The notes below the pieces were generated by a model. The model ran no database searches, had not been told where the DNA came from, and worked only from the letters and a program-made list of their open reading frames with translations. 64,000 bases of DNA from Aurantimonas manganoxydans SI85-9A1 (GTDB lineage Bacteria; Pseudomonadota; Alphaproteobacteria; Rhizobiales; Rhizobiaceae). A program made the position numbers and the translations under genes. The stretch is from the NCBI RefSeq assembly GCF_000153465.1, contig NZ_CH672387.1:3015903-3079902 (forward strand), read 5' to 3'. Positions 21,662 to 33,252 of this stretch are shown piece by piece. How positions within the stretch are numbered: the stretch's first letter is position 1; every line of letters begins with the position of its first letter.

Positions 21662-22909
21662 TCAGCCCCATTTGGCCAGCGAGGCGGCCAGTTCGGGATG
21701 GTCCCGGGCCTTGTCGGCCAGCGACAGGCCCTCGGCCGCCGCGTCCCACGCCTGGCGGATGGCGCGCACGCCCGCGGCTGGCCCCATCGGATGGCCATGG
21801 ATGCCGCCACCGCCGAGATACATCAGGTCGAGCGTGCGGCCGGTGCGCTCGTAGGTCTCGACCGCCTGCCCGCCCCACTGGCCGGAACAGACGACCGGCA
21901 GCGGCCGGTCGGCCTCGGAGAAGATCGGCGTCATGCAGTCTTCGAAGGAGCGCACGAAGCTCTCGTCCGGCTCCCAGTATTTCGCCTGGATGCCGTTGAT
22001 CTGGAACTGGTCGACGCCGAGCAGCCGCCAGATCTTCTGATAGGCGCGGAATTCGAGGCCGAGGCCGGGATGGCGGGTGAGGATGTCCCAGCCATTGCGG
22101 TGGGCGTGCAGGCACAGCGCCGAGCGCTTGCGCAGGAAGGTCATGCCGCCATAGCCGATGGAGTTGATGTTGACGACGGCGGCGTTGCCGCCGGCCTCGA
22201 CCACCAGGTCGTGGTTGCGCATCATCGTGTCGGGATCGGCGGAGGAAATGCCGAACGCGTACATCACCCGCTTGCCGGTCTTCTGCTCGTGGTCGCGGAT
22301 CACTGGCATGATGGCCGCGATGCGCTGCTCGAGCGGCGAATAGGCCGGGCTCATCAGCTTTTCGTCGTCCTTGATGAAATCGACGCCGGCGGCGCAGAGA
22401 TCGGCGACGACGGCGGCGGTCTCGTCCGGCAGAAGCCCCAGCGACGGCTTGATGATCGAGGCGATCATCGGCCCCTCCTCCACGCCCATCAGTTGGCGCG
22501 AGCCGGCGATGCCGAATTGCGGCCCGGGATGGCACGCCCAGGCTGACGGCAGGTCGATGTCCATCACCCGGATGCCTGTGACGCCCTTGACTGCGAAGAC
22601 GCCGCCGATCGCGATGGTCATCAGCGCGGCGACATCGGTGCCGATCGCCTCCAGCGGATAGGCGATGGTGACATCGGCGCGGTGGTAGGGACCCTGCCCC
22701 GCCGGATCGGGAATCGACGGGACGGTCAGGGGCTTGAGCGGCATGACCTGCTCGACGCGGGCGGCGCAGCGGGCGCGCACCGCCTCGGTCTCGGCCGGCA
22801 GTTCGGTGAAGGTGCCGGTCGACTGGTCCGAGGCGATCTTGGCCGCCAGCGCCTCGACGTCGCCGGCGCATTCGATGCGATAGGTCACCCTGATCATGTC
22901 GTCCGCCAT
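21662..22909 (-). CDS. RuBisCO-like protein, predicted 3-oxo-isoapionate-4-phosphate transcarboxylase/hydrolase or decarboxylase (OiaT/OiaX type)
   Basis: A 415-residue form IV RuBisCO homologue. Kept from RuBisCO are the enolising lysine region IIKPSLGL (Lys154), the carbamylation/metal motif GVDFIKDDE (Lys180, Asp182, Glu183) and HAHR (His270, Arg271). Changed are the second lysine of KPKLG (here Ser) and loop 6, where VCSGQWGG lacks the lysine needed for CO2 fixation, so it cannot be a true RuBisCO. In the known D-apiose/D-apionate pathways, RLPs of this type process 3-oxo-isoapionate-4-phosphate. The cluster supplies ApsD, ApnL, ApnO and OiaK but no isomerases for erythrulose phosphate, which leans toward the transcarboxylase/hydrolase (products 3-phosphoglycerate and glycolate); the decarboxylase role remains possible. 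Start ATG 22909 has AAGGA 7 bases upstream. Confidence 0.88.
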   Translation of the reverse strand: MADDMIRVTYRIECAGDVEALAAKIASDQSTGTFTELPAETEAVRARCAARVEQVMPLKPLTVPSIPDPAGQGPYHRADVTIAYPLEAIGTDVAALMTIAIGGVFAVKGVTGIRVMDIDLPSAWACHPGPQFGIAGSRQLMGVEEGPMIASIIKPSLGLLPDETAAVVADLCAAGVDFIKDDEKLMSPAYSPLEQRIAAIMPVIRDHEQKTGKRVMYAFGISSADPDTMMRNHDLVVEAGGNAAVVNINSIGYGGMTFLRKRSALCLHAHRNGWDILTRHPGLGLEFRAYQKIWRLLGVDQFQINGIQAKYWEPDESFVRSFEDCMTPIFSEADRPLPVVCSGQWGGQAVETYERTGRTLDLMYLGGGGIHGHPMGPAAGVRAIRQAWDAAAEGLSLADKARDHPELAASLAKWG

Positions 22910-22944
22910 CGCATTATCCTTCCCGTCGCACGCCATCTCAAATA

Positions 22945-22963
22945 CTCATCATACCTGTTGACA
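22945..22963. promoter_or_regulatory. Predicted operator and -35 element in the RLP/transporter divergent promoter
   Basis: CTCATCATACCTGTT at 22945-22959 matches 14 of 15 positions with a site at 32372-32386. The reverse complement contains GGTATGATGAG, close to the TNGTNNNACNA pattern of FadR-type GntR regulators. A perfect TTGACA at 22958-22963 overlaps it and could be the -35 of the plus-strand operon, so binding would block transcription. The match is read directly; the regulator assignment is inferred. Confidence 0.7.
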
Positions 22964-23050
22964 TAGTAATGACGATCTCTCAAGCTTCCGGCCGATCTAG
23001 GGAGGAGGGCATCCGCACTGGGTGCCACGAATGATCGGGAGGAGCCTTTC

Positions 23051-23995
23051 ATGCTGATCAACCGTCGTATTCTCGTTTCCGCGCTGGCTGGCGCTGCCAG
23101 CCTGATCGCGATGCCGGCATTCGCCCAGGACAAGGGCCTGATTGCCATCATCACGCCGAGCCATGACAACCCGTTCTTCAAGGCCGAGGCCGTCGGCGCC
23201 GACAAGCGCGCCCAGGAACTCGGCTACGAGACCCTCGTCCTCGTCCATGACGACGACCCGAACAAGCAGTCGGAAATGTACGACACGGCGATCGCCCGCG
23301 GCGCCAAGGCGATCATTCTCGACAATGCCGGCGCCGACGCCTCCGTCGCGCCCGTGCGCCGCGCCAAGGAAGCCGGCATCCCGTCCTTCCTGATCGACCG
23401 CGAGATCAAGGAAAGCGGCATCGCCGTCAGCCAGATCGTCTCCAACAACTACCAGGGCGCCCAGCTCGGTGCGGAGAAGTTCGTCGAGCTGATGGGCGAG
23501 GCAGGCAATTACGTCGAGCTGCTCGGCCGCGAAGCCGACACCAATGCCGGCATCCGGTCCTCGGGCTATCACGACATCATCGACCAGTATCCGGACATGA
23601 AGATGGTGGCCCAGCAGTCCGCCAACTGGTCGCAGACCGAAGCCTACGAGAAGATGGAGACCATCCTCCAGGCCAATCCCGACATCCAGGGCGTCATCTC
23701 CGGCAACGACACCATGGCGATGGGTGCCTGGGCGGCGCTGGAAGCAGCGGGCCGCACCGACGTCATCCTCGTCGGCTTCGACGGCTCCAACGACGTGCGC
23801 GACTCGATCAAGAAGGGCGGCATCAAGGCCACTGTGCTGCAGCCGGCCTATCGCCAGGCCCAGCTCGCCGTCGAGCAGGCCGACCAGTACCTGACCGAAG
23901 GCTCCACCGGCCAGTCGGAGAAGCAGCTCATGGACTGCGTGCTGATCGACGAGAGCAACGCCGACAAGCTCGAGACCTTCGCGCTCGCCGACTGA
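23051..23995 (+). CDS. Sugar ABC transporter substrate-binding protein (ribose/xylose-type periplasmic binding protein)
   Basis: A 314-residue periplasmic sugar-binding protein (Peripla_BP_4 type). It has a Sec signal peptide with cleavage after MPAFA, then the family start [22 protein letters not shown]. Hinge and ligand segments include [21 protein letters not shown] and [17 protein letters not shown]. Start ATG 23051 has GGGAGGAG 6 bases before it. First gene of the plus-strand operon that also encodes ApsD and ApnL, so D-apiose or an apiose-derived acid or lactone is the expected cargo. That is inference from context. Confidence 0.94.
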
Positions 23996-32318: not shown

Positions 32319-32347
32319 GAAGCTACCTCGGAGGCCCGCTGCGGGCG

Positions 32348-32386
32348 TTGACATTTCGGTCCTATTATTATCTCATCATACCAGTT
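32348..32386. promoter_or_regulatory. Predicted promoter and operator between oiaK and apnO
   Basis: TTGACA at 32348-32353 could be the -35 of apnO, followed by the AT-rich stretch CCTATTATTAT. The motif CTCATCATACCAGTT at 32372-32386 agrees with the site at 22945-22959 in 14 of 15 positions. The reverse complement reads TGGTATGATGAG, near the FadR-family half-site pattern. No good -10 could be fixed. Confidence 0.7.
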
Positions 32387-32424
32387 TAGGAAAGGTCCCG
32401 TTGGACCTCGGAGGAGTGTAGGCA

Positions 32425-33252
32425 ATGACCACTGTGGCGCTGTTCGGCGCAGGCGGCAAAATGGGTGTCCGTCTTTCCCGCAATCTGGCCAAATCGGATT
32501 TCGACGTCCGTCATATCGAGGTCGACCCGAAGGGGCAGGAGCGCCTCAAGGATGCAATCGGCGTCGATTGCGTCGACCAGGAGACCGGTCTGGACGGCGC
32601 CGACGTGGTGATCCTCGCCGTGCCGGACACGGTGATCGGCAAGGTCGCGTCGCTGGTGGTCCCGAAGGTCGCGCCAGGCACGATCGTCGTCGTGCTCGAC
32701 GCCGCAGCGCCCTTCGCCGGCCATCTGCCCGAGCGGGCCGACATTACCTATTTCGTCAGTCATCCCTGCCATCCGCCGATCTTCAACGACGAGAAGACGG
32801 AAGCCGGCCGCAAGGACCATTTCGGTGGCATCGCCGCCCAGCAGGGCGTCGTCAATGCGCTGATGCAGGGCCCGCAGGAGCATTACGAGATCGGCGACAA
32901 GGTCGCCCGCGCCATCTACGCGCCGGTCGCCCGCACCTATCAGGTGACCGTCGAGCAGATGGCCTATCTGGAGCCGGGCCTGTCGGAGACGGTCTGCGCC
33001 TCGCTGCTGGTCGTCATGCGCGAAGCGATGGACGAAGTGGTCAAGAAGGGCGTGCCGCATGATTGCGCCCGCGACTTCCTGCTTGGCCACATGAACATTC
33101 TCGGTGCGGTGATCTTCGACGAGGTCGACGGTGTGTTCTCCGACGCCTGCAACAAGGCCATCGAATTCGGCAAGCCGATGCTGATGCGCGACGACTGGAA
33201 GCGCGTCTTCGACCGCGACGAGATCGCCGCAAGCATCCAGCGCATCACCTGA
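32425..33252 (+). CDS. apnO: Predicted D-apionate oxidoisomerase
   Basis: A 275-residue NAD-dependent enzyme. The Rossmann motif is at the N-terminus (VALFGAGGKMGVRLSRNLA), followed by DGADVVILAVPDTVIGK and the conserved YFVSHPCHPPIFND segment. The C-terminal half matches the phosphogluconate-dehydrogenase-like helical domain (FLLGHMNILGAVIFDEV). ApnO converts D-apionate to 3-oxo-isoapionate, the substrate of OiaK, whose gene is divergent 106 bases away. Start ATG 32425 has GGAGGAG 8 bases before it. It ends in a strong hairpin terminator. Confidence 0.87.
   Translation: MTTVALFGAGGKMGVRLSRNLAKSDFDVRHIEVDPKGQERLKDAIGVDCVDQETGLDGADVVILAVPDTVIGKVASLVVPKVAPGTIVVVLDAAAPFAGHLPERADITYFVSHPCHPPIFNDEKTEAGRKDHFGGIAAQQGVVNALMQGPQEHYEIGDKVARAIYAPVARTYQVTVEQMAYLEPGLSETVCASLLVVMREAMDEVVKKGVPHDCARDFLLGHMNILGAVIFDEVDGVFSDACNKAIEFGKPMLMRDDWKRVFDRDEIAASIQRIT

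Follow-up and report, generated by a model that had tools for sequence, protein, structure and literature searches.

D-Apiose is a branched sugar that is best known from plant cell walls. Its oxidative breakdown, the reaction details of which reportedly go back to Carter et al. 2018, ends at either of two RuBisCO-like proteins (RLPs). OiaT yields 3-phosphoglycerate and glycolate. OiaX yields L-erythrulose 1-phosphate, which the isomerases LerI and DerI then convert to D-erythrose 4-phosphate. A member of the Rhodobacteraceae, LCG007, which possesses ApnL, ApsD, ApnO, OiaK, and OiaX, can live on D-apiose as its only carbon source (PMC11747546). The present analysis concerns a stretch of 64,000 nucleotides from Aurantimonas manganoxydans SI85-9A1, hereafter the window, in which ten genes at positions 21662–33252 very probably encode the OiaX branch of oxidative D-apiose breakdown, with a regulator of the NanR subfamily controlling both divergent promoters. 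The locus is real, ordinary, and of the known D-apiose OiaX type, and its operator is the part worth testing. A pathway that is experimentally backed elsewhere, together with a probable on/off site, is placed in an Aurantimonas-like bacterium.

The RuBisCO-like protein and the proposed pathway

All 10 genes are open, have no internal stops, and lie where the earlier note had put them or very near. They form four apparent transcription units, namely oiaX (minus strand); sbp, the DUF2291 gene, rbsA, rbsC, apsD, apnL, and the regulator gene (plus); oiaK (minus); and apnO (plus). The earlier grouping of genes for import, ApsD, ApnL, ApnO, OiaK, and an RLP is borne out, as family searches and relatives in the PDB back the assignments. 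The enzyme set of ApsD, ApnL, ApnO, kinase, and RLP is complete in the window, with ApnL and OiaK recognized by their best model below its cut-off. Relatives for comparison were the best 80 of 429 OiaX matches and not a random sample; the stretch was shorter than 18 kb in 14 of the 80 loci, and gene presence was called with thresholds chosen by eye, gene by gene.

The RLP scores 797.7 bits on the OiaX model NF042437, the cut-off of which is 700, and covers profile positions 1–412 of 412, which argues for decarboxylation and not for cleavage of the OiaT type. It is most likely OiaX, and decarboxylation its step, in place of the cleavage proposed in the earlier note. Both apnO and oiaK lie in the window, and both are present in 66 of the 80 loci. 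With the genome's own RuBisCO as reference, K163 of the RLP matches the first Lys of KPK, K189, D191, and E192 preserve the KDDE metal site, and K319 is the loop-6 Lys. Where RuBisCO has the second Lys of KPK, the RLP has Ser, and both His of HIH are Gln (Q310, Q312); the protein lacks the complete active site of a true RuBisCO and is therefore not a RuBisCO. Across 79 OiaX rows (the window and 78 relatives), 125 residues are invariant. The ribosome-binding site and the end of the family profile make 22909 (415 aa) the probable start of OiaX.

Gene content, OiaX family membership, and conserved linkage were observed directly, and each reaction is inferred. D-Apiose would be imported by the RbsBAC importer with DUF2291, converted by ApsD to D-apionolactone and then by ApnL to D-apionate, which ApnO would oxidize and isomerize to 3-oxo-isoapionate. 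OiaK would form the 4-phosphate, from which OiaX would yield L-erythrulose 1-phosphate by decarboxylation. A pair of the triose-phosphate isomerase (TIM) and RpiB type elsewhere in the genome may lead on to D-erythrose 4-phosphate. Two genes for TIM and a single one for RpiB are present; the second TIM gene (contig C1:4078775–4079497) adjoins that for RpiB (C1:4078311–4078730), and a DeoR-type regulator gene lies alongside, all some 1 Mb away from the window. The closed path described in the earlier note holds in its gene assignments and order of steps, but the locus alone stops short of central metabolism, as the two isomerases are needed. TIM and RpiB homologues occur within the OiaX locus in 19 of the 80 relatives, which supports the OiaX branch.

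The ApsD and ApnO assignments rest on close sequence relatives in the PDB and on co-occurrence. The nearest solved relatives are 5uhw for ApsD (465 bits, 336 residues) and 5t57 for ApnO (433 bits, 272 residues). ApsD has 8 other matches in its own genome (25–34% identical), and ApnO has no second one. ApnL has no Pfam match and no sequence match in the PDB at E values up to 1. Its predicted fold has a mean predicted local distance difference test (pLDDT) score of 87.9, and Foldseek ranks glycosidases of the GH36 and GH97 types first among its PDB matches (best E 8e-12). With template modelling (TM) scores of 0.2–0.35 and root-mean-square deviations of 16–22 over whole-length alignments, these matches suggest only a domain layout, namely a beta sandwich, a barrel, and a beta domain, like that of GH36/GH97 glycosidases.

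Regulator and predicted operator

The regulator passes the cut-off of the NanR model NF003011 (297.7 vs 260 bits), and CTCATCATACCWGTT is common to both divergent intergenic regions of the window. The NanR-subfamily protein, most likely a repressor, would bind CTCATCATACCWGTT in both divergent promoters, and binding at these two would bring all four transcription units under control. At operator 1 the motif runs into a TTGACA box, and this overlap with a -35-like element suggests repression. Operator conservation is a direct observation; which effector acts, whether control is negative, and whether the distant isomerases take part are matters of deduction. The conserved site probably switches the locus on and off, which is a new detail. 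The papers listed by literature searches, which covered neither RegPrecise nor most subscription journals and some of which listed only part of their matches, include none on an apiose operator.

In a whole-genome scan for TCATCATACCWGTT, sites with at most one mismatch were found only at the two window promoters, and 10 further sites had exactly two mismatches; the reversed-pattern control gave 1 site at up to two. Dinucleotide-preserving shuffles of the window led to an expectation of 0.10 motif sites against the 2 found, and 1 of 100 shuffles reached 2. Among the relatives, 104 sites with at most one mismatch occur in 66 of the 80 loci, the expectation from shuffled sequence, with only single-base composition preserved, being 0.2 sites. 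Nearly all of these sites (98/104) lie within 300 bases of a pathway gene start, taking tblastn ends as gene starts. Moreover, six sites precede LerI/DerI homologues in L017, L020, L053, L058, and L066 (two in the last, shared with sbp), and two are found in an actinobacterium, Enemella (L070). Because the motif was derived from the 80 loci, it is bound to be abundant there to some degree; more independent tests come from scanning the whole genome, from the second promoter, and from the promoters of the isomerase genes. By its sequence, such an operator can help to locate apiose regulons, to fill in further members such as the isomerases, and to distinguish OiaX systems from other genes for RuBisCO-like proteins.

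Alternative readings

Several observations weigh against an OiaX-type apiose pathway under NanR-like control. ApsD and ApnO fall below every NCBIfam cut-off, their best models being inositol 2-dehydrogenase (115 vs 355 bits) and prephenate dehydrogenase (34 vs 310 bits), respectively. ApnL matches NF049900 alone, with 605.5 bits under a cut-off of 750, and the kinase reaches 467.9 bits on its best model, OiaK (NF042436), under a cut-off of 700. The distant TIM is a plain triose-phosphate isomerase to NCBIfam (408 bits, cut-off 293), and the isomerase pair, some 1 Mb off, has its nearest operator match, with 2 mismatches, about 9.6 kb away. When only relatives with 18 kb or more are counted, the motif is missing from 3 of the 57 that have the regulator and present in 4 of the 9 that do not. 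Furthermore, 15 kinases from rhizobial/Brucella-type OiaX loci fall outside the clade of the window kinase, beside Kin2 of the same genome, with weak support (93/22).

Part of this concerns the models themselves. The window ApnL and kinase were classed as ApnL-like and OiaK-like through their best model (for ApnL also the sole one) and linkage, not through cut-offs. The runner-up model for the kinase, 3-oxo-tetronate kinase, gives 156.6 bits. Five kinases scored from the 67 retrieved at other OiaX loci all stay under the OiaK cut-off (459–498 bits). No genome passes it in a sample of 289 from the class, of which 33 have some match. The NCBIfam cut-off is thus failed by 6 of 6 OiaX-linked kinases scored, the window's included, and therefore the model does not fit them. 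For ApnL the cut-off misses the window form. Five of 47 ApnL homologues from other OiaX loci were scored; the one of L016, a locus with the gene order of the window, stays under the cut-off at 636 bits, and the other four pass (868–1034 bits). Judged by these scores, NF049900 suits rhizobial and Roseibium ApnLs better than that of the window. The kinase tree has 66 rows, namely 63 of the 67 retrieved kinases (those longer than 430 aa) and three of the own genome. It places the window kinase in a 49-row clade (96/95) of kinases from OiaX loci. Kin2 and Kin3, both from the own genome, are long branches, so the tree is evidence neither for nor against a single clade of OiaX-linked kinases separate from Kin2.

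An RLP of the OiaT type would cleave the phosphorylated intermediate by transcarboxylation and hydrolysis, and an RLP of that type acts on the same substrate (PMC6302742). That the window RLP is of this type is highly improbable given the OiaX score of the window RLP, against only 452 bits for the other RLP of the genome, and given the TIM and RpiB pair beside OiaX in relatives, which is expected only for the decarboxylation product. A role in the use of some related branched sugar or acid instead, or mainly of imported D-apionate, is also very unlikely. The sub-threshold ApnL and OiaK scores would fit such a role, and so would the 18 relatives, of 66 with 18 kb or more, that have OiaX with neither ApsD nor ApnL nearby. 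Against it, ApsD and ApnL are present in the window, and the binding protein of its importer is 81% identical to Rhizobium etli RHE_PF00037, reportedly solved with D-apiose (5ibq). Regarding control, the motif could belong to another regulator or be a mere promoter element, with the NanR-like gene incidental. The overlap of the motif with the -35-like box speaks for this, as does its presence in 6 of the 16 loci whose examined stretch has no NanR homologue. On the other side, it is present in 60 of 64 loci with the homologue (Fisher p 3.5e-6, for loci that are related and not independent), and its reverse complement includes TGGTATGA, near the NanR half-site TGGTATAW (PMC4494728). An incidental NanR-like gene is accordingly regarded as unlikely, and regulation by the NanR-subfamily protein is preferred.

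Distribution of the locus

The nearest relative among the 80 is Aurantimonas coralicida (OiaX 96%). ApsD, ApnL, ApnO, and OiaK are all present in 46 of the 80 loci, and in 36 the importer as well. The exact ten-gene order of the window recurs in 14 of the 80 relatives, from Aurantimonas, Paracoccus, Marivivens, Donghicola, Salipiger, Mameliella, Pseudohoeflea, Martelella, and one further alphaproteobacterium. With the same order and enzymes recurring in relatives, the layout is neither unique nor a distinct variant; the distinct arrangement considered possible in the earlier note is not upheld, as seven genera besides Aurantimonas share it. Within the family to which the window belongs, 61 genomes, counting that of the window, include 12 that pass the OiaX cut-off. 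Twelve loci (L014, L023, L028, L030, L034, L036, L038, L039, L054, L057, L059, and L062) have OiaX, OiaK, and ApnO with no ApsD or ApnL within the stretch examined. Loci of this kind perhaps take up D-apionate or have another feed into the pathway.

Importer and other features

The features of the locus are collected in Table 1. The binding protein, sbp, has RHE_PF00037 as its relative in 4ry0; 5ibq is reportedly the same protein solved with D-apiose. The probable start of OiaK, judged from the ribosome-binding site and the end of the family profile, is 32318. An M20 peptidase gene (20196–21587) was considered as a member of the locus and dropped, as L011 alone among the 80 relatives has it. 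The suggestion that the locus points to a plant-derived diet is weak, the organism being Aurantimonas-like and some bacteria synthesizing UDP-apiose themselves (PMC5607165).

Table 1. Genes and predicted operator sites of the D-apiose locus (window positions)
Feature	Position	Strand	Basis
oiaX, RLP, 3-oxo-isoapionate-4-phosphate decarboxylase (predicted)	21662..22936	-	NF042437 797.7 bits
Operator 1 (predicted), TCATCATACCTGTT	22946..22959	+	between oiaX and sbp, runs into TTGACA -35-like box
sbp, sugar-binding protein, ABC importer, RbsB type	23051..23995	+	top PDB matches 5ibq, 4ry0
DUF2291 periplasmic lipoprotein, start uncertain	24071..24718	+	PF10054, 162 bits
ABC importer ATPase, RbsA type	24720..26279	+	family searches (NCBIfam, Pfam)
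ABC importer permease, RbsC type	26276..27349	+	family searches (NCBIfam, Pfam)
apsD, D-apiose dehydrogenase, Gfo/Idh/MocA (predicted)	27360..28379	+	PF01408; 5uhw 465 bits; 53/80 OiaX loci
apnL, D-apionate (apionolactone) lactonase (predicted)	28376..30172	+	NF049900 605.5 bits; sole genome match
FadR-subfamily (FCD), NanR-like regulator	30177..30923	+	NF003011; PF00392, PF07729
oiaK, 3-oxo-isoapionate kinase, DUF1537 type (predicted)	30948..32354	-	NF042436 467.9 bits; SBD_N/NBD_C Pfam
Operator 2 (predicted), TCATCATACCAGTT	32373..32386	+	between oiaK and apnO
apnO, D-apionate oxidoisomerase, 6-phosphogluconate-dehydrogenase-like (predicted)	32425..33252	+	PF16896 (PGDH_C); 5t57; 66/80 OiaX loci

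Other RuBisCO-fold genes of the genome

The genome has two further genes of the RuBisCO fold, one true RuBisCO and one RLP, termed RLP2. RLP2 (C1:112078–113301) adjoins a DUF1537 kinase, an SDR epimerase-like gene, and a TRAP importer, the module occupying L004:12706–19467 (C1 about 110.7–117.5 kb). RLP2 is 44% identical to OiaX and its kinase 40% identical to OiaK; on the respective models, RLP2 remains at 452 bits (cut-off 700), and its kinase obtains 551 bits vs 468 for the window kinase. The NCBIfam matches of RLP2, like those of the window RLP, include no OiaT model. RLP2-type genes were examined with their surroundings at 7 loci from family genomes. At one of these (L130, G024:C1:1255000–1272000), the RLP2-type gene is accompanied by ApnO, a NanR homologue, and a kinase, as if it stood in the place of OiaX, which hints at an OiaT role and makes L130 a candidate OiaT locus. 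The RLP2–kinase module may likewise be OiaT-like. Transposase-like genes lie close to this module, one of them matching IS256 in part. At L006 (C1:553000–570000), the true RuBisCO large subunit is surrounded by Calvin-cycle-like genes, named by eye, for fructose-bisphosphatase, phosphoribulokinase, aldolase, and CbbX.

A broader picture can be offered tentatively, doubtful as it is when all its parts are taken together. In it, a NanR-subfamily apiose regulator with the single asymmetric operator CTCATCATACCWGTT would govern a regulon shared across Alphaproteobacteria and one actinobacterium, in some species also before erythrulose-phosphate isomerase genes, and the second RLP–kinase module, besides the true RuBisCO, would act on the same intermediate in the manner of OiaT.

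Comparison with known systems

The OiaT branch shares its steps with the present pathway up to 3-oxo-isoapionate 4-phosphate and differs in the last one, where the window RLP scores as OiaX. Loci of the rhizobial/Brucella type order their genes otherwise, whereas the order of the window is common to Paracoccus, Salipiger, Mameliella, and others; aligned with ApnLs of the rhizobial/Brucella type, that of the window is 40–45% identical. ApsD, ApnL, ApnO, OiaK, and OiaX, as described for LCG007 (PMC11747546), are also found in the window. The regulator resembles NanR of the sialic acid genes in passing the cut-off of the family model and in the TGGTAT half-site. However, NanR uses direct repeats (PMC4494728), whereas the window has one asymmetric site and its regulator stands among apiose genes.

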